From: Prunus persica
Taxonomy: Eukaryota > Streptophyta > Magnoliopsida > Rosales > Rosaceae
DNA length: 64,000 nt
Assembly (NCBI RefSeq): GCF_000346465.2
Contig: NC_034012.1
Location: forward strand, 893,134 to 957,133
Direction of reading: 5' to 3'
Shown: piece after piece, positions 26,619-62,296 of the stretch
Numbering within the stretch: the stretch's first letter is position 1
Layout: the number at the start of each line of letters is the position of its first letter
Position numbers and translations under genes: made by a program
The notes under the pieces: generated by a model
Databases searched by the model: none
What the model was told of the DNA's origin: nothing
What the model saw: only the letters and a program-made list of their open reading frames with translations

Positions 26619-28345
<1,727 letters not shown>

Positions 28346-28662: not shown

Positions 28663-29159
28663 ACATATAAATTAAGGGTTTAGTATCGGGGAAGAGACTT
28701 GTTGGAGGTTCCTTTCCGATTCGAACACGAAATCCATACTTGTAGTCTTCTCTATCTATATCTCTTCTTGATTCGGCGTGTCGCAGGCAAACTCTCTCTG
28801 GGTCCGTCCGAGTCACCAAAGCGACGCCGTTTACACTTGTAACTTATATAACTATTTACCTAAAATCTTTATTTTATTTTTAAAAAAGGAAACCATTTCG
28901 GAAATTTCGTTGAGAATCAGTAAATATGGTAAATAATATTCTTGCTGACCAAGTTATGTACACGTGTTAAGTTTTAGAGTACCACATTTAGTAAACATAT
29001 GATTCTTTCCTATCCCTCGCAACCAATCAATTCTTTCCCAAAAAAATTGAAAAAAAGCAATAAATTCTTCAATTCCCAAAACCCCTAAACCCTTACTTTT
29101 TCGTGACATACCTTAGCCACGCTTATTTGCAGAGAAGAGTCAGAGGTTGGAATTGCGAC
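28346..29159. promoter_or_regulatory. Bidirectional leader/promoter region between ATG8 and its derivative
   Basis: Holds the ATG8 leader exon and intron (minus, about 28346-28550), its promoter with a TA microsatellite (28630-28658), and the leader of the plus-strand derivative. On the plus side ACCAATCAATTC and a C-rich CCCAAAACCCCTAAACCC (29020-29095) echo the ATG8 leader in reverse orientation, and TTATTTGCAG at 29130 looks like a leader-intron acceptor 20-odd bases before the ATG. Core promoter elements are not certain. Confidence 0.45.
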
Positions 29160-30271
29160 ATGGCAGAAAGCTCTCTCAAGAACGAATGTTGTCAGGGTTT
29201 GTATTTTATTTGCTTTGGTTCAGTATGTTTGGATGTTTCATTCTATTTGGTGTGAATTATTGTATTTAACTTTTTCCGTTTGATGGAATAATACTCTAGG
29301 GTTCTAAAACGTCGACCTTTTTTCTGGCAGAATTTTTCTTTTTCATTCAAAATTTCATAAATCCTGCGGTTGATACTGATTATGGTTTGTTTTCCAAGTT
29401 TTTGTCTAACCTTTCTTTCTCATCTGTTTTCTTGTGCTGGTTTTGGACAATTCCGATATTTTAGAAAGGATGCAAGCAGAAGAGAATAATTCAGATCCTG
29501 CACCAGTAAGAATTTCACTGAATCAGCTAGATATGTTCACTTCCTTCTAGGCAGGCATTAAGTGGAAATTTTATGTTCTAATTTGAGTCTTTATGCAGAT
29601 GGTTGTGAAGAATGCTGCCGCTGCTGCTTCCCTAAGTGTCATTCCTGACATTAATAAGATGAAGAAGAAGAAGAAGAGGTTTGCTACCAATTCCTTTAAT
29701 TCTTTTGATTCGTATTGCCACAATAGTGGAACAAGAATAATGTTTGCCTTTTCATTTATTTATTTTTTATGTTCAGGAAACCGACAGTAGTAATATCTCC
29801 GGTTAGAGCTTTACTTTTAGACACTTGGAATATGAGGCACGTGTGGAAGAATGCGGTGAGAATTTCATTGACTTAATTTGTTTTACTGCCTATGGCTATG
29901 TCATTCAGTGGAAATATATACTCTGTTCTAACTTGAGCCTCATGCATCTGATTGTGCAGGATGGTACAAGTAGTAATGAAAAACATATAGACCCTTGGCT
30001 TTTGAGGGAGACGCACCCAGATTTGGTACCAGTAAGAATTTCATAACATTAAATATGTTTACTTTGTATGGATGCATTCGATGGTTATACTTTGTTTTAA
30101 TTTGAGCTTCCATGCAGGTGGCTGTGGAGAAGGATGCAAGGAGTGATATTGCTGAGATTGACGTGAAGAAGTTAGTTGCCAATTCAATTCCCTTGTACTT
30201 TAAGTATATCTTGATTTGATTTATTGCTATCATACCATGGAATAGAAATGTTCTCTTTTTGTTTGTGATTT

Positions 30272-30309
<38 letters not shown>

Positions 30310-30877
30310 TCAGAAATCGTTCAGGAGAAACAGAAGCTGTATATATGTGTTTTTGTTACAAATAAAGTTGTGCATTTTAAAGTGTACATGCGGTTTATGC
30401 TTATATAGATTATAGATATGATGTATTCATGTGTTCATTTTGTGCATTTAGATGTACTTGCGTTATTACTACAAAGTCAAACTCCAAGTTCAATATGTGT
30501 TGGTAATTAACGTTATCTCAATTGAAGATTTTGTTTCTCTGACTGCAGGTACCTTGTCCCTAAGGATGCACTTCTTGGAGATTTTATTGCTTATGTTCGG
30601 ATGTGGATCTTTCTAAAGAAAAGAAAACCTATATTTGTCTTCTTCAAAAACACTGTACCTCCAAAGGGTGAGATGCGCATGCAACTCCTTTTTTAAAATA
30701 GGCATATATATAATAATAGTATCTTCGTTCCCAACTCTCCTTTGTCTTTCAATGAATGTTACAGGTGCCACTTTGGGTGCAATTGATGAGGAAAATAAGG
30801 ATGAAGATGGATTTCTTCACATGACCTACAGTGGGAATGATACCTTCAGCTACAGTGGGAATGATGTGACCTGTTGA
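29160..30877 (+). CDS. ATG8-derived protein, copy A (197 aa, no C-terminal Gly)
   Basis: Eight exons with GT-AG borders stay in frame: 29160-29196, 29465-29505, 29599-29678, 29777-29855, 29960-30031, 30118-30170, 30549-30667, 30765-30877. Exons 1, 6 and 7 have exactly the lengths and phases of ATG8 exons 1, 3 and 4 (37, 53, 119 nt). The C-terminal half follows ATG8: [77 protein letters not shown]. The N-terminal half is a second, diverged ATG8 exon 2/3 unit ([27 protein letters not shown] plus a Lys run) and a novel exon 4. The tail reads [11 protein letters not shown]: the Phe-Gly is Phe-Ser and YSGND is duplicated, so ATG4 processing and lipidation are not expected. The basic VVRKRIKL strand is changed. 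Function unknown; a competitor or scaffold is conceivable but untested. Expression not shown. Confidence 0.75.
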
Positions 30878-31035
30878 TTATTTATAGTTTATCCTCTTGA
30901 TCTTGAGATCAATCGGCTAGCTTATTATGGTGCTACAAGTATTTATTTTTTTGACAAAGGATTTTCATGCATGGAGTAGAAATATTTTAATGATTTGCTA
31001 GTGATGTTTATGTTCATCACAATAAACTAATGAGT

Positions 31036-31115
31036 TGGTGAGATTGACGTGAAGAAGTTAGTTGCAAATTCAATTCCCTTGTACTTTAAGTACCATGGAA
31101 TAGAAATGTTTTAAT
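31036..31115 (+). pseudogene. Orphan copy of the ATG8-derived exon 6 end and intron 6
   Basis: GAGATTGACGTGAAGAAGTTAGTTGC and the following ~50 bases repeat 30153-30250, about 160 bp after the stop codon of copy A, with a deletion inside the intron part. It is a further local duplication. Confidence 0.8.
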
Positions 31116-53068: not shown

Positions 53069-54194
53069 ATCCCATAATTTATCCCCAAAAAAAAAAAAGA
53101 AAAAAAAGAATACTTCATGGAAAACCATTACATGGCGTTGTTTAACAGAAAAACAAACTTTAACCAAAATAAAATTACCAAATAAGGCAGGAAGTGGGTG
53201 TAGAGGTTCTCAGGCTCACATTAGTTAGCAATTGGCCTCATTCTTGGAGATCACGCAATTGTATCCAATGAAGCAATTGAAAAAGACAAATTATGTTTTC
53301 TCTTATTATGTTGAAGTTAAATATATTCTCTTATTATGTTTTCTTATTGGGTTTAAAATCTTACCAAATTAGTTGGGGCGCAAAATCATAGCCAAAGCCA
53401 TAGTGCGGGCTCACATCTTTCATGTTCAACCAACTTGGAGTATTTTCAGAATTCTCAGGCCCAAGAAGGCTTTTTATTATATATATAATATACTTTTATA
53501 ACAATGAGTCCAAGACCAGGTTTTGATAGCTGAACAGACTCTAGTGTCTCGAATCAAACTAACTTAACATCGAGTAGCCTACAAAATTTCTTAATAGTTA
53601 GTCATACGATGCGTTGCGTGCGGGTCTATATTGATTTAGCGTGCTTAGTTGGATTTATCCTGCTGTTAACCTCGACCACACATATGGACGGGCATTAGGA
53701 GTGGAAAATCGGAACACCGAACCAAATCGAATGAAAAAAAGGAAAAAAACTGATTGACCAAAAAATTTAACAAACTGAGACAAAACCGAATCAGATCAAA
53801 CTGATTTTAATTTCGATTTCATACCGCACCAAACCAAACCGGTTGTGTATAAATTTTTTTTTTATACAAAATTATCTAAATCCAATGCTCCATTTTTAAT
53901 TTTAGGACTAATATTTTTCCAAGTCCAACTTCAAAGCATCTCTCTTTGTATGAATTGGATCATTTGTTAATTTTCAAGCTAAAAAATAATTTTTTTTTGT
54001 TAGCATTTGTATTTAAAAATAATAAAAATAATAAGGTTCAAAACCAGAATCGATGAGAACCAAACAAGCCAATTTTTAAAAAAATTTCATTAATATCGAA
54101 TAGAACAGAACCAGTTAAATAGTACCAATTTTAATTTGAGATGAGAATCGGACCGTGCCCGCCCTTACCCACACATGCTGGCAATGGCATGCAT
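53069..54194. repeat. Long direct repeat, copy 1
   Basis: From ATCCCATAATTTATCCCC onward this ~1.13-kb segment is nearly identical (a few substitutions and small indels) to 62887-64000, in the same orientation, 9.8 kb apart. The repeat runs to the window edge, so its true end is unseen. It has no TG/CA ends at the visible left boundary and no recognised coding content, so I treat it as a segmental duplication or an unknown interspersed repeat, not an LTR. Confidence 0.95.
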
Positions 54195-54999
54195 GATAGT
54201 TTTCATTTCAAAACCCTTAGAGGTCATTTGTGGTCCGAAAATGAAAATCATAGTTGAAAAAGTATTTCAAAGAACCAAGATTTTTCATCCCAAATTCCTT
54301 GGACAAATAGTCATGTAAGCTTTTCATTCTTTTGGATAATTTCCTATCACAAATGGTCTTGTAATGCTTTTCGTTCTTCTGAAACATTTAAAATAAGAGA
54401 AATGTCCTTTTTTAATAAGGGAATTTTCCTTAATAAATGTAAATATTAAGAATTAAAATAATTAATCAACTATAAATAATAAGGTAAATTTATACTTTTT
54501 ATTTAAAAAATAAAAACAAAATCATATAATGGTCATATTTTTACCAAGGGACTAGTTATATATAATCATCCAAAACAAAACAAAATTAAAATTAAAAATA
54601 GGGGTCCAAGAAATAGGGAGATTAACTATTATACCCCAATATACGGCCTAAATTATAAAAATACCCTATATGAAATGGACTTTAGAAACACACCCAAAAC
54701 CCATTTACAACATAACAAAGAGGTTTTTAACTTCTTATAAATTACAAACTGCCATCAATTTCTTAAAACAAGTCAAACCCCAAAATCTCATAAAAATACC
54801 CAAAACACTCAATATGGCATCAAAGTAATTTAATAATCAATATTAAATTCAATAAGGCAAGTTGTCATTTTTTGGGTTTTTTTCCGGTTTGTTTATAGAA
54901 ATTCAATGGTGTATAATTTATCTATAATATTAGTGCATGAATGAATATACCACTAAATATCTCCAAGAAATAATGTGATATGGGCCCGGGGTCGTAGTC
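54195..54999. other. AT-rich spacer
   Basis: No gene recognised. The duplication may continue through here, but the second copy is beyond the window. Confidence 0.4.
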
Positions 55000-55397
55000 C
55001 AGGTCATGGAACGGAGCCCAGAGAAAGTAAGTATAAAACACGCCGAAGAAAACCTAGACGACACAGAAAACCTTTCGCGTTGGAAGCTTGCAAATTGCAA
55101 TCGGAAAGAACCTCAACAGGTCTGTTCCCCAATGTGAAACCCTTAAATTTATGTATCGTATGTATATTTTATGATTCTTTGCCTTCAATAATTTTCTCCC
55201 CTTCAGTTGATTTTTACCCTCTGTTCTTTAATATTCTGAACCAATCAATTCATCAATTCCCCAAACCCTAATCGATCCTTTGCATGTTAACTTTTCGTAA
55301 AAACCATCCAAGTCACAATGCATGTCTTGATCTACTGGTGTTCAATGTTGTTTTGTTGTTCCTAATTTGCAGAGATCAGTCGTAGTGGAGTTTCGCC
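55000..55397 (+). promoter_or_regulatory. ATG8-type promoter and leader of copy B
   Basis: The block aligns with the ATG8 promoter and leader read on the minus strand (28820-28346). Shared landmarks in order are ACACGCCGAA, AATCGGAAAG.AACCTC.AC, CCTTAA.TTTATGT, GATTCTTTGCCT.CAATAAT, ACCAATCAATTCATCAAT.CCC and, at the leader-intron acceptor, AATTTGCAGAGA..A.TCG followed by GTGG.AGTTTCGCCATGG. The order and spacing are kept, so copy B was born with ATG8 control DNA. Transcription is inferred, not shown. Confidence 0.75.
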
Positions 55398-56943
55398 ATG
55401 GCCGAAAGCTCTTGCAAGCTTGAAAATCATCTGGGTTCGTTTTCTTGTCTTTTTGTTTTTTGGGTTAATGATATAGGTTTTGCAATACCCGTATGCCGAT
55501 ATCATGTTTGGCCTTTTCATCTGTTTTCTTCTTTTGGTTTTTGATATTTTAGAAACGATGCGAGCAGAAGAGAACATTTCAGATCCAGCCCCAGTAAGAA
55601 TTTTACTGAATCATATTTGTTTACTTCCTTCCTAGGCAGGCATTCAGAGGAATTTTATGTTCTAATTTGAGTATTTATGCAGATGGTTGTGAAGAATGCT
55701 GCCGCTGCGGCTTCCCTAAGTGTCATTCCTGACATTAATAAGATGAAGAAGAAGAAGAAGAGGTTTGCTACCAATTCCTTTAATTCTTTTGATTCGTATT
55801 GCCACAATAGTGGAACAAGAATAATGTTTGCCTTTTCATTTATTTATTTTTTATGTTCAGGAAACCGACAGTAGTAATATCTCCGGTTAGAGCTTTAATT
55901 TTAGACACTTGGAATATGAGGCACGTGTGGAAGGATGCGGTGAGAATTTCATTGACTTAATTTGTTTTACTGCCTATGGCTATGTCATTCAGTGGAAATA
56001 TATACTCTGTTCTAACTTGAGCCTCATGCATCTGATTGTGCAGAATGGTATAAGTGGTACTGAAAAACATATAGACCCTTGGCTTTTGAGGGAGACGGAC
56101 CCAGATTTGGTACCAGTAAGAATTTCATAACATTAAATATGTTTACTTTGTATGGATGCATTCGATGGTTATACTTTGTTTTAATTTGAGCTTCCATGCA
56201 GGTGGCTGTGGAGAAGGATGCAAGGAGTGATATTGCTGAGATTGACGCGAAGAAGTTAGTTGCCAATTCAATTCCCTTGTACTTTAAGTATATCTTGATT
56301 TGATTTATTGTTATCATACCATGGAATAGAAATGTTCTCTTTTTGTTTGTGCTTTGGACATATATATATATATATATGTTTATAAATTGTTCAGGAAAAA
56401 CAGAAGATGTATGTATTCTGTTGTGTTTTTGTTGTTGCAAATAAAGTTGTGCATGCAATTTATGCTTATATAGATTATAGATACGATGTCTTCATGTGTT
56501 AAATTTGTGCATTTAGACGTACTTACTTTATTACTACAAAGTCAAACTCTAAGTTCAATTTGTGTTGGTAATTAACTTTATCTCAATTGAAGATTTTGTT
56601 TATCTGACCGCAGGTACCTTCTCCCCAAGGATGCACTTCTTGGAGATTTTATTGCTTATGTTCGGATGTGGATCTTTCTAAAGAAAAGAAAACCTATATT
56701 TGTCTTCTTCAAAAACACTGTACCTCCCACAGGTGAGATCAACTCCTTTTTTAAAATAGGCATATATATATATATATAATAATAGTATCTTCGTTTCCAA
56801 CTCTCCTTTGTCTTTCAATGAATGTTACAGGTGCCTCTATGGGTGCAGTTGATGAGGAAAATAAGGATGATGATGGATTTCTTCACATGACCTACAGTGG
56901 GAATGATACCTTCAGCTACAGTGGGAATGTTGTGACCTGTTGA
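55398..56943 (+). CDS. ATG8-derived protein, copy B (197 aa, no C-terminal Gly)
   Basis: Eight in-frame exons with the same lengths and phases as copy A: 55398-55434, 55553-55593, 55683-55762, 55861-55939, 56044-56115, 56202-56254, 56614-56732, 56831-56943. Exon 1 reads [12 protein letters not shown], closer to genuine ATG8 (MDKNSFKLDHSL here) than copy A. The body shares [63 protein letters not shown] and [16 protein letters not shown], ending [11 protein letters not shown]. As in A, the lipidation Gly is Ser and the reading continues. Introns 3, 4 and 5 are identical to those of A, while exon 5 differs at five codons. All eight frames open after such duplication argues against simple decay. 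Cellular role unknown. Confidence 0.75.
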
Positions 56944-57084
56944 TTATTTATAGTTTATCCTCTTTATCTTAAGATCAATGGGCTAGTTTATTATGGTGCT
57001 ATAAGTGTTTATTTTTTGATATCTCAAGGGATTTTCATGTATGGAGTTAAAATATTTTAATGATTTGCTAGTGATCTTTATGTG

Positions 57085-58716
57085 TATTGATGTTGGATGA
57101 GGGAATTCCAATGTCATTTGGTTGCCATGGTTGCCTTTCAGTTAAAAGCTTTATCGGGTTTTGCATTTGATCAATCTCCAACAACCCAAGAACCGAACCA
57201 TATACTATGTAAGAAATAAATAAATAGAAACGTTGATATAGATCCTAGTTCTCATTGAAGAGTTGGGTTTGATTCTTAGATTGTGTTATTTATATAAGTC
57301 CTTTGACTTTTGTTCTATATACGATTATATTTATTTTTAAATATTTTCTTACGTATTCTTTTTATTCATTTATTTTTTAACATTTGTTCTATATATGATT
57401 ACATTTATTTTTGAATATTTTCTGATGTATTCTTTTTATTTTTTTATTTTTAAAATTATTTTTGTTTCAATTGCCTCTTATAACTTGAATAAGATAATAG
57501 TCATTTATGTCATAATAATTAGCTATTTACAATGTTTGTCATAGAATAGAAAAAAATATATAGCAAACATATCCCACAAATCACATTTTTACGTACAGTC
57601 ATGCAACTTCGAACTCTAAATGTTTTGACAAAGAAAAAAATGAATTTGTTTATGGTGTAGGTATATTGTCTTATTGCCTATTGAATAGGTACCTATGTGA
57701 TTTTTTTTTCCTTCATATTTTCGATAATATGTAATTTATGTTCTAAATTTTTATAGGTTACATAAAATTTTATTTGTCTATTTGCCTATTTTTGGCGTAT
57801 GCTGTTTTCCATAGCATGTTTTATGAGCTAGATATATACATTATTTGGGTTTTCCCAATTTCTTTGCAAATTGCAAACAAAAGTCGTCCCACCAACTGAT
57901 AACTAAAGCTAGCTACACTCGTCGCATTGTTGGATTTTATCTGGGGCGCCAATATAGACTTGAGTCATGACCATACAAATTACAATTAAGATGCCAAAAT
58001 GCCTTACAACTAAATTCCTTATACGTACAGTACGTACCAAACTGAAATGTATTATATAATAAAAGAAATGTAATTTGTTTTTATCTCCTTTTAAAATATA
58101 AGGAAGCTTGGTACAAAATATCAGACACCGGCTGCAATGGGATGATATATCTTTCAAATTAGATAAAAGAATATATATTTTGAGCTGATAATTGGTTCTA
58201 GAAGCGTTTAGAAATTAGAATAGGACTTCTAATATCAATAGGTTCCATTGCAAGTGTCTTATCTAAGACCCTATCTCTTAACCGTTAGATAAAATTAGTT
58301 CATTATTAAGATACAACTAAAAAAGAAATTCATCCAAATTCCTGCCATCTATATGTGCGCGAGTTGGAAGCATGAAAAATAAAAAGGAAGAGGCTGAATC
58401 CTTGTGATATATTATATATGACAAGTAAATAATGAGAACTTTATTAATTAAGGGATGACAACGTTGATGATTCCTTACAATAAACAATTGATTTGCTAAG
58501 CCCATCGAATGGTGACGGTTAGCTAGCCCTTATTCCTTGCACTTGCACATACACACGTACACTAATTCATAGCCTTATAAATTATTTTCATGTATATAGG
58601 ATATAGCTAGCTTTGAGCAAAATAAAATAATAAAAGTATAGCTACGCAATTAATATTGCAATATCCTTATTCCTTATCGATCCAGTAGCAGTGATCTATC
58701 TGGTGCGTCATGATAA
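57085..58716. other. Intergenic AT-rich region
   Basis: A ~100-bp phrase (TTTGTTCTATATA.GATTA.ATTTATTTTT.AATATTTTCT) is tandemly duplicated at about 57308-57355 and 57378-57430. Otherwise nothing recognised before the STIG1-like gene. Confidence 0.45.
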
Positions 58717-59196
58717 TTAGTGTTCATGCATAGCTGCACATTCCTTTCTTTTCGTGCACGTGTTGTTGCAGCTGCCGCAGTTTTCCTTGTCCGACATCGG
58801 ATTCACACAGTTACCTTCGCAGCAAATCTCTGCGTAATTGCATTTCCTCCCACACCTGCCGCAGTTCGCTGTGTCTGTGTTTCTGTCCACGCATTTCTTG
58901 TTGCAGCAATCCGGCCCTGCGCTGCCCGACGCCTGACAAACCTTAGGGTTTTTGTCGCAAGTCATGGCAGTCGGCCGGGAGGCAAGGAAGCGGCTTCTTA
59001 GAGAAGTGCTTTTTCCAAACTGGTTTTTGGTTTCGTCATTTGCATAAGTATTGTTTTCCTCGTTGAAAAATGATTCTTCTTCGTCTGGTATTGCAGAGAG
59101 AGTAGTGATGGCTGAAGCTATTAGCATGGCAAGAATTAGAAAAACCTTGAAGCGCAGAGGTTTTTCTGCATCGTGTACCCAACATAGAAAAAACAA
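58717..59196 (-). CDS. STIG1-like secreted cysteine-rich protein
   Basis: A single exon of 159 residues. A hydrophobic signal peptide (FKVFLILAMLIASAITTLSA) follows a short N-terminal extension; the mature part starts acidic and ends with the Stig1 cysteine pattern: GPDCCNKKCVDRNTDTANCG, CGRKCNYAEICCEGNCVN, DKENCGSCNNTC. Family members are small secreted proteins first known from stigma exudate; some bind phosphatidylinositol lipids or receptor kinases and act in pollen tube growth or redox control. The first Met (MFFLCWVHDAEKPLRFK) leaves an extension before the hydrophobic core; a start at the Met within the core would be too short, so the longer form is given. A TATA box lies 95 bases upstream. 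Confidence 0.88.
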   Translation of the reverse strand: MFFLCWVHDAEKPLRFKVFLILAMLIASAITTLSAIPDEEESFFNEENNTYANDETKNQFGKSTSLRSRFLASRPTAMTCDKNPKVCQASGSAGPDCCNKKCVDRNTDTANCGRCGRKCNYAEICCEGNCVNPMSDKENCGSCNNTCTKRKECAAMHEH

Positions 59197-59290
59197 CGTT
59201 CGACCAGCTTCCTTTCGTTTACCTTGACTAATTGAGTTCTCCTTTGGAAAGAAACTTCTACATCCAACCTTTGAACCTCTCCTTTAGGCT

Positions 59291-59300
59291 TTTATATATT
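59291..59300 (-). promoter_or_regulatory. TATA box of the STIG1-like gene
   Basis: On the minus strand AATATATAAA lies about 95 bases before the start codon, leaving a leader of about 60 nucleotides. Confidence 0.5.
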
Positions 59301-59695
59301 TTAGCATGGGAAAAGTGTAGTCGTCTATGTTACGTCTATGTTAGGAATTTATATTACGTCTATGTTAATCAGGATAGGTGCCGCAAATCGTGAGGTAGAA
59401 GTCTTGTAACTGAGCTGGTCTTTAGTTGGTTTGGGCTTTTCCTCCTTAAACTAACCTTCACATGGGCTTATATTAAGAAAAATACGATTTTAAGCAAAGC
59501 CCACGCCCAACTATAAAGAAAAAGAAATATTTCATGCCCAATGGTCACCCAAAGGAAATGGAAATGGGAAGACAAATGCCGACTCATCATTACTTGTTCT
59601 CCAATATGCTCATCTCTTCCGCAGCAAGCCACAAATGACAACAAATGACAAAGCAGCAGAAGCAGCATAACAAAAAAAATAAAAAGAGAAAAGAC

Positions 59696-60251
59696 TGTTG
59701 TAAAAGAATAAACATGTGGAGCTCACTAACTATTCATTACTATTCATTTGGAGACTTTTGGTAGAGTTTGTCTGTCACGGGTGAATAGTGAATAGTGATG
59801 AATAGTGATTATTTCAGCCTATAAATAAGAAGAGAAACGGAAAGAGAAGAGAAGAAAAAAGAAGAGAGAAAGAAAAGAAGAAAAAGAAGAGAGAAAGAAA
59901 AGAGGAAAAGAAGAAGAGAGAAAGAGATAGGAAACGGGGAGAAGAAAAGGAAAGGAGGAAAGAGAGAAGAAAAGGAAAGAAGGAAAGAGAAGAGGAAAGG
60001 GAAAGGAGGAAAGAGAGTCAGGCAGAGAAGAGGAAGAGAAGGAAGAAATAGGGTGAGTGAGCAGAGAGAAAATTCAGTGAGCCTTACATATTGTAAACAC
60101 TAAAGTTGTAGCCCTATTATTTTACATAGTGGAAAAGTTACTACTGCTGCTCTCCGGGGACGTAGGCATAGCCGAACCTCGTTAAATACTGTGTCTCATC
60201 TACTTTACGTGCAGCTCAATATTCGCACATATTCCAGGTCATTTTATAACA
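59696..60251 (+). mobile_element. Copia-type LTR (556 bp) with adjoining primer-binding site
   Basis: The segment begins TGTTGTAAAAG and ends TTTTATAACA, followed at once by CGTTATCAGCATG, the primer-binding-site style of a common plant Copia group. A TATA box (CTATAAATAAG) lies at 59820. Then 59825-60055 is an almost pure purine tract, and the 3' part has GGCATAGCCGAACCTCGTTAA, frequent in such LTRs. No gag-pol follows; only a short piece of leader remains, so the element is truncated. The 5-bp target duplication cannot be checked because the other end is missing. Confidence 0.6.
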
Positions 60252-61554
60252 CGTTATCAGCATGCATCCCGCTCCCTCTACTCAAGTTTCTCCAACTTAT
60301 CCTACGAAACACACAACATCTATCATATGGTAATGAATAGTGGCAATAATTATTTGATTGTTCCATTTAATTACTACAATAGGCATTAATATAACTTATT
60401 TTTGCCGCTTCATCATTAATTGGCCTAGGAGTAGGGCCCTTCTTACTGTAAGCAAGCCTGAAAATTATGCAGATTGAATATCATCGACAAACAAATACCA
60501 TTGCCTTTGAACCAAATATTATATATGAAGATACTAGTTAAGGACTTAATATTAATTGCACACTAAAAACAAAAAATTCTAAAAAGCACAGGTTGAAGCA
60601 ATGACACTCTCAACCAAAAAACAAAGTAAACATCACTTCCCCAACGAAGCTTGGTTAAAGACCAAATAACATACTAGCTAAAAGACATGCATACTTTGAA
60701 GCAGTCAAAATTATTCATGCACCAAATTTAAAACAACCTGAAAATAAAAAACGAGAAGCCACTACCCAAGTATCGGAAATTTGTATAACTAACAAGCAAA
60801 ATAGCAAAAGCATTGTGTGTTACTTGCAATTTTCTTATAAAGCCTCTGAAACAGCAGGAGTGTAGATCCCAAGGACAAAGGTAAACATATGTTTATATTC
60901 TTGCAAAAGTTATTAGGTTGTAAAACAATCCACCAAAAGAAGAGGAAATAACCCTTCCTTAATCTAGTTTAATACAAAATCTACACTTATTATATCAGAG
61001 AAGCAGAAGCACCAAACAAGAAGCGATTCAATTTCTTGTCATTTTAACAATCATTGCTTACTGATAGTATGTTCAAAAGGGGAAATTTTTTATATATAAA
61101 GAAAATAACCATGAAGTCCCTAATAAGAGTAATATAGGCCGAAGGTTAAAACATCAACCTCCTCTACAACACCAAGGGAATTACTAAATTAGATACAAAA
61201 ATGGTATCCTCCAAACATGCTTTACATAGAGCAGCAGAAAACCTAGGAGAAACACGTTTGGAAAAGACAAATATTGAGCCAAAACATAAGATTTTACCTT
61301 GACTGAGTTATGGTCAATCTTTAGAGGCTTTGTATGAACTGCAACTTAATCAATTGAAACACATTTTTACAAATAACGAAGGGGGAAAAATCAGACATGA
61401 GAATTCATGAACAAAAGGGCAACTCTAATAACCACCACACTAAGCAAATGATACACAAAATGTGATAATTATAAAATGAATGTGATAATTATAAAATGCA
61501 GGTCAACATCCATACCAGCAACTAATTTGTCAAAGTCATCATGATATGGTGATA

Positions 61555-61590
<36 letters not shown>

Positions 61591-62220
61591 AGTACAAGTT
61601 TAGACTAGCAAAAAGAATTAATGCAATCAGTGATACATAAACAAATTAAACAACAAGTAGAGGGGGGGGGGGGGGGGGGGATTTGGACTTGTACTGATTC
61701 AGGTTGATGAATCAGACATCTTCTGTTTCTTAAAACTACCAATATATCTATCCACTAAAAGTGGAAGAGACAAGACAACTGCCTCACTCTCTTATACTCA
61801 AACCTTACAGATGGTCTCAAAATTGCATACTGCTTATAAAACATCGACAACTAGGGATGAGATTATATTGATAAAACTACAAAAACGTTCTCAAAACATC
61901 AAGGATCCAGTTCAACAGCTGCAAATATCAAGTCTAATTGTACAAAACAAGAAGAGCCACGAGATTCACAATTTGTAATGAATGAAAGCAAACCAAGAGC
62001 AACGCACTAAGTACCTATTTTAAGCATATCCATGGAGCTATTATGTAATATACGCACTAGTTACTTGGCATCAACCACTACACGGGCAATAGAATCCCCT
62101 GATAACCTAAATTGTAAACCAAAATTTCAAGCTAGCTAGTAATTAAAACAATGATGACAAAATTACTTGGGTAAATTTTAAGTGCATATGTAAAACAATG
62201 ATGCCTAGCTACGACTACTC
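60252..62220. other. AT-rich region without recognised genes
   Basis: All frames are short. A TA microsatellite (61557-61589) and a poly-G run (61662-61680) stand out. It may include intron or 3' DNA of the decayed pectate lyase locus. Confidence 0.4.
61662..61680 (+). repeat. Poly-G run of about 19
   Basis: A homopolymer of G, rare in AT-rich plant DNA, sits about 70 bases after a long TA repeat. Confidence 0.8.
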
Positions 62221-62221
62221 T

Positions 62222-62296
62222 GGTTGGGTTAGCGTTGCCTCCAACCGCGTCACATCTTCCACTCGTCATATCTATTTTTTGTATAGTTTTCAACAT
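62222..62296 (-). repeat. ~70-bp direct repeat of pectate-lyase coding DNA, copy 1
   Basis: On the minus strand this reads KTIQKIDMTSGRCDAVGGNANPT, almost the same as 62648-62716. After NPT the frame leaves pectate lyase sequence, so this is an isolated fragment produced by local duplication. Confidence 0.85.

Follow-up and report, generated by a model that had tools for sequence, protein, structure and literature searches.

The gene c1 and its copies in peach

In peach (Prunus persica), the window, that is the whole stretch of 64,000 nucleotides that was analysed, carries at positions 29160-30877 of the plus strand a gene, termed c1 in the following, whose eight exons are spliced to 594 nt encoding 197 residues and a stop codon in an open frame, with GT donor and AG acceptor at 7/7 introns. 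It stands head to head with a canonical ATG8 gene, and the exons of both genes can be set against each other as follows.

26619-28345, minus strand: canonical ATG8 neighbour, 119 residues, end GENVFGSF
29160-29196, plus strand: c1 exon 1, 37 nt, with the start codon; weakly like canonical exon 1 (6/300 shuffles equal or better)
29465-29505, plus strand: c1 exon 2, 41 nt; canonical exon 2, shortened (0/300 shuffles)
29599-29678, plus strand: c1 exon 3, 80 nt; canonical exon 3, copy one, with a lysine run at the end
29777-29855, plus strand: c1 exon 4, 79 nt; without canonical counterpart, carrying LDTWN, a form of the LDPWN motif
29960-30031, plus strand: c1 exon 5, 72 nt; its end corresponds to canonical exon 2 at the protein level (0/2000 shuffles), with no DNA match
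30118-30170, plus strand: c1 exon 6, 53 nt; canonical exon 3, copy two
30549-30667, plus strand: c1 exon 7, 119 nt; canonical exon 4 (ATG8 core)
30765-30877, plus strand: c1 exon 8, 113 nt; canonical exon 5, tail [11 protein letters not shown], with a serine at the position of the canonical ATG8 glycine

A genome-wide search with the joined c1 protein gave 37 matching stretches (E up to 1). Two further copies, c2 and c3, are open with a splice-site layout identical to that of c1, and older relatives are found on C4 and C8.

55398-56943, plus strand, inside the window: c3, same eight exons, 197 residues
55398-55434, 55553-55593, 55683-55762, 55861-55939, plus strand: c3 exons 1-4, spliced open frame
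56044-56115, 56202-56254, 56614-56732, 56831-56943, plus strand: c3 exons 5-8, spliced open frame
L009 3624-5185, on C4, starting about 1.5 kb beyond the window end: c2, same eight exons, 197-residue frame
Window 53069-62222 and L009 1021-8605: tandem duplication carrying c3 and c2, 94-96% alike
c1 29679-30117, c3 55763-56201, both in the window, and c2 L009 3989-4427: span of introns 3-5, these introns identical in the three copies
C4 252-260 kb: L029, older relative, looks broken
C4 2.387 Mb: L030, older relative, fits peach protein P0019
C8 506 kb: L031, older relative
C4 24.42 Mb: L032, older relative, looks broken

Stops, frameshifts and lost splice sites were looked for in c1, c2 and c3 and none was found, the introns being GT/AG throughout. 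The c2 protein is identical in every letter to P. persica PRUPE_4G020400 (P0003), which at 92% identity is the peach database protein nearest to c1. The preliminary description had taken c1 for an intact ATG8-derived gene of 197 residues, which the eight-exon frame, its GT/AG introns and the same frame in two further copies bear out, and the exon lengths of 37, 53 and 119 nt that it held to be shared with the neighbouring ATG8 gene recur among the five exons of the latter (37, 56, 53, 119 and 95 nt).

The copies c3 and c2 lie inside a tandemly duplicated segment, roughly 10 kb long, that spans the window end. The 5' end of c1 is unlike that of c2 and c3, and a second match for 28980-29460, from which its origin might be read, was not found genome-wide. 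Downstream of the c1 stop codon, a stray piece of exon 6/intron 6 is located at 31035-31110. Almond P0001 and apricot P0004 possess three extra residues (DIL) at the join of exons 1 and 2; the codons for DIL are also present in the peach c1 DNA directly before the acceptor used (window 29440-29470), so that the exon 1-2 join may differ among species.

Assembly from ATG8 exons and introns

Each exon and intron of c1 was compared with each canonical one, in 68 comparisons, uncorrected for their number, with 300 single-base shuffles apiece. Exons 2, 3, 6, 7 and 8 of c1 correspond to canonical exons 2, 3, 3, 4 and 5, each match being equalled by 0/300 shuffles. Canonical intron 2 has three counterparts in c1, namely introns 2, 4 and 5 (z 19.7, 13.0 and 18.9; 0/300 shuffles), while intron 6 matches canonical intron 3 (z 7.5; 0/300 shuffles) and intron 1 weakly resembles canonical intron 1 (1/300 shuffles as good). 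The presence of three intron 2 copies in c1 suggests that part of ATG8 underwent duplication twice within the gene. As the comparisons of exon 2 with exon 5 and of exon 3 with exon 6 as DNA gave no match (295/300 and 11/300 shuffles as good), this duplication is read from the introns and from the comparison with the canonical gene. The exon-by-exon comparison with shuffles thereby agrees with the earlier view of duplicated ATG8 exon pieces joined by one exon without ATG8 counterpart.

For the latter exon, exon 4, descent from an ATG8 exon was considered and rejected, since neither its DNA nor its protein gave a match; it precedes a copy of intron 2, a position that is the sole hint to its source and that points to an origin in the duplication. 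The idea that introns 3 and 6 are mutual copies was likewise rejected, with 77/300 shuffles equally good. Among the relatives, apricot P0004 and P. campanulata P0009 harbour an extra exon 3-like stretch between the equivalents of exons 4 and 5 (1 and 4 of 2000 shuffles, respectively), and a comparable stretch of P0016 shows a weaker likeness to exon 3 (41/2000 shuffles). These extra stretches suggest that the ancestor probably had the intron 2-exon 3 piece three times, of which the peach copies, judged from their sequence, probably retained three introns but two recognisable copies of exon 3.

In an unrooted tree of the core, which includes c2, the rebuilt peach genes cluster together with support 100, and the neighbouring ATG8 together with the rebuilt group is split from the three other peach ATG8s with support 98 on DNA and 82 on protein. 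Over 199 positions, the DNA upstream of c2 is 75% like that on the 5' side of the neighbouring ATG8, wherefore the copying seems to have included promoter DNA; in the exon 1 region the likeness between the two genes amounts to 84% over 79 positions. The likely course is that an ATG8 gene of the lineage still adjoining c1 was copied, that the piece of intron 2 and exon 3 was then duplicated twice inside the copy, and that this internal duplication would have led to the longer first half of the protein.

A family in Prunus, Malus and Pyrus

A first protein search retrieved 27 proteins, among them 22 Prunus proteins, spread over eight species, and two Malus proteins. A profile search, read for the best 120 of 138 matches, added Pyrus, P. 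avium and proteins with two ATG8 units, for example of 339-455 residues, and in a third search the Rosa and Fragaria entries among the best 120 of 203 matches were of ordinary length (119-138 residues). Among the matches listed, Prunus, Malus and Pyrus thus have relatives that contain either a single ATG8 unit or two, and the databases label them as 'autophagy-related protein 8C-like', hypothetical or uncharacterized protein (for example P0001, P0019, P0056 and P0003). The proteins counted as family in the following (72 for the motif and 74 for the basic patch) were chosen by the author via organism and sequence, and include fragments and doubtful models as well as P0030, P0042 and P0088; odd or split gene models are P0007, P0012, P0014 and P0015.

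With respect to the first half of the protein, an LDPWN-type motif occurs in 51/72 family proteins and 0/51 ordinary ATG8 proteins, with a mean of 0.86/72 on shuffling, and is retained across Prunus, Malus and Pyrus. Of 90 new proteins among the matches listed of the third search, the motif is present in three: two pear proteins and a Citrus protein (P0131, LDPFD), the motif of which is taken as chance. A basic patch of at least five K/R in eight residues is present in 49/74 family proteins versus 1/50 ordinary ones, and a milder patch (four in eight) lies at most 35 residues upstream of the motif in 46/60 occurrences versus 427/1480 random segments. The lysine-rich patch is a sequence pattern and, as such, would be compatible with import into the nucleus. 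By eye, no AIM motif was seen in the first half of c1.

The fold predicted for P0003, the c2 copy, is a single ATG8 domain with the ubiquitin-like core at approximately residues 90-188, and Pfam PF02991 gives one match to the same protein (93-188, 88.5 bits, cut-off 27); the exon 7 stretch of c1 matches PF02991 with 30.7 bits (cut-off 27). The partly duplicated fold that had been suggested for c1 is thus not what prediction and Pfam give for its 92% identical copy. For the first half, a second ATG8 fold is not supported, given the single Pfam match and the prediction, in which residues 1-60 have a pLDDT below 50. The motif helix at residues 67-73, partly with pLDDT below 50, is aligned with alpha1 in 12/50 rows (2/50 for a pear protein), and alpha2 of the P0003 model comprises H91-97. 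The LDPWN-type motif may stand in for helix alpha1.

ATG8 proteins are highly conserved; they expose a C-terminal glycine that is joined to a lipid, bind partners by two pockets and, in their best-known roles, need the lipid-joined glycine. The aromatic-glycine end is the site that is cut by ATG4 and then joined to the lipid. Of the family tails, 0/78 carry the aromatic-glycine pair [FYW]G in the seven residues past the YSG position, versus 45/49 ordinary tails. The c1 tail [13 protein letters not shown] has, as in c2 and c3, F-S, with serine after the phenylalanine. Many relatives possess C-G or S-G close to the old glycine (about position 116 in some), and judged from these letters processing may still be possible in them.

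The partner-binding groove is kept in part, as far as per-position counts can tell that are approximate, the automatic split having counted about nine family units of Malus, Pyrus and Prunus as ordinary. Of the AIM/LIR pocket residues, in numbering that follows GABARAP, the family mostly keeps P30, K48, Y/F49, V51, F60 and F104; I32 is often A/T/S, L55 is changed to M/A and V63 to F/Y, and R67 is variable. At other positions, Y95 is mostly replaced by D, Y106 by H, A75 by P, V80 by F and A36 by D. With the pocket partly altered, AIM binding may be lost.

Indirect signs of expression, for relatives of c1, come from the database entries. Protein P0030, 350 residues long, stems from a contig of no more than 1371 nt, and its frame crosses several exons of the peach genes, so that the contig looks like spliced RNA from a relative. 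Some of the relatives bear names from 'isoform X1' to 'X8', and 'isoform X' names of NCBI usually rest on RNA reads. Translation of c1 itself we infer, and c1 is very probably a coding member of an ATG8-derived family.

Compared with canonical plant ATG8 (PF02991, GABARAP-type), the c1 family shares the core sequence, the predicted fold and, by the approximate counts, parts of the AIM pockets, and c1 shares the sizes and phases of the last exons. On the other hand, the family differs by the longer, duplicated first half, the motif exon without counterpart, the basic patch, the missing aromatic-glycine end and its fast evolution. We file it as ATG8 by descent and fold, but not by the defining end.

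Selection and possible function

Codon models were run with custom code, not PAML, on a core of 88 codons. The branch model comprised eight peach genes, four ordinary and four rebuilt, and the site model c1, c3, L030 and L031, leaving out c2 as well as L029 and L032, which look broken; likely gene conversion among c1-c3 violates the tree assumption of these models. Omega amounted to 0.033 for the ordinary branches and to 0.81 for the family, an approximately 25-fold difference (likelihood ratio 94). We tentatively favour, as the reading of such a family, that c1 is an unlipidated, off-membrane ATG8-like binder. A c1-type protein would keep one C-terminal ATG8 domain without the aromatic-glycine end for ATG4 and lipid, and its reshaped groove would hold AIM-type or new partners off the autophagosome membranes. 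Acting as a competitor or adaptor, it might compete for, shield or re-route AIM-type partners, possibly in the nucleus.

The alternative that survives best, though it is unlikely for c1 and its open copies, is that these genes are decaying duplicates, functionless products of birth and death which are open by chance. Some family members do decay, as L029 and L032 look broken and the P. mume model P0011 has a frame change in exon 7. The omega of the family crown (0.75) is not distinct from 1 (p=0.26), and dN/dS between c1, c2 and c3 is 0.78-1.15. Per branch, the core would stay free of stops by chance with a probability of 0.19-0.22 and the full frame with 0.02-0.03; the absence of stops by itself is weak evidence of function. 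What argues against general decay is that an all-neutral core is rejected for c1, c3, L030 and L031 (p=4e-5), with 35% of the sites at omega 0.05, and that the LDPWN-type motif persists in all three genera. So does the uneven identity among ten c-type Prunus sequences, a set that excludes the odd models P0007, P0011, P0012, P0014 and P0015: identity is 98% and 94% for exons 6 and 7, but 79% and 77% for exons 4 and 5, with exon 3 at 96% and exon 8 at 88%. We read these figures as a core that is partly constrained and a first half and part of the surface that are fast-evolving.

A special case of the off-membrane binder, improbable in our estimate, is a host-parasite decoy, the groove of which would bait AIM-like proteins of pathogens under diversifying selection. 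Between the copies c1-c3, introns 3-5 show 0/288 differences and exons 3-5 differ at 7-8/231 sites per pair (Fisher p 0.001-0.003, the region having been chosen after seeing the data), and 6/7, 7/8 and 7/7 of these exon changes per pair alter the residue. These introns look as if levelled by gene conversion with the exons spared, and gene conversion among the three copies is likely. Over exons 2-8 versus introns 2-7, however, exons differ at a higher rate than introns in just 1/3 pairs. Model M2a places 13% of the core sites, several of them beside the groove, at omega of about 5, but with p=0.052 on four peach sequences falls short of significance. The structure of potato ATG8 with a peptide of a Phytophthora effector (5l83, among the structure matches listed) would speak for such baiting.

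That c1 is an ordinary ATG8 isoform with a long N-terminal extension, still processed and lipidated, is very improbable, since the canonical fold predicted, the several groove residues kept and the glycine near position 116 of some relatives stand against the F-S ends of all three peach copies, the absence of aromatic-glycine from the family tails and the 25-fold rate of the core.

The off-membrane binder can be extended to a wider reading that is possible but somewhat doubtful, namely that fruit trees possess an ATG8-derived class, of one or two units through tandem exon duplication, that serves as variable off-membrane AIM decoys or adaptors under diversifying selection, perhaps in the nucleus. 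If true, the class would represent a second life for the ATG8 fold outside lipid conjugation. In yeast and fly, roles of Atg8 that are independent of lipidation are reportedly known. The likeness to c1 would consist in the ATG8 fold as a binding surface without lipid; in yeast and fly, though, as far as the accessible part of the source tells, one ordinary Atg8 does both jobs, whereas the c1 family consists of separate genes apparently without the lipidation end. Unlipidated Atg8 roles are described in that part of the source (PMC7615515). A tandem, fast-changing family that keeps the fold without the lipidation end would be a natural test of unlipidated ATG8.

Titles and abstracts on ATG8 in peach, Rosaceae and apple and on lineage-specific or unlipidated ATG8 contain no description of the family, in a coverage outside which most subscription papers fall. 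The 'autophagy-related protein 8C-like' entries of Prunus, Malus and Pyrus are c1-family members that are labelled as ordinary ATG8, and such mislabelling as ATG8C in crop trees could mislead gene counts, expression studies and lists of QTL candidates. In P. mume, PmuATG8CL (Pmu.4_1G430470) with Pro52Leu is a candidate for a bud-dormancy QTL in the accessible part of the report (PMC11747360), and may or may not belong to the rebuilt family. Apple MdATG8i, from the part of its description at hand, is an ordinary ATG8 (PMC4879346).
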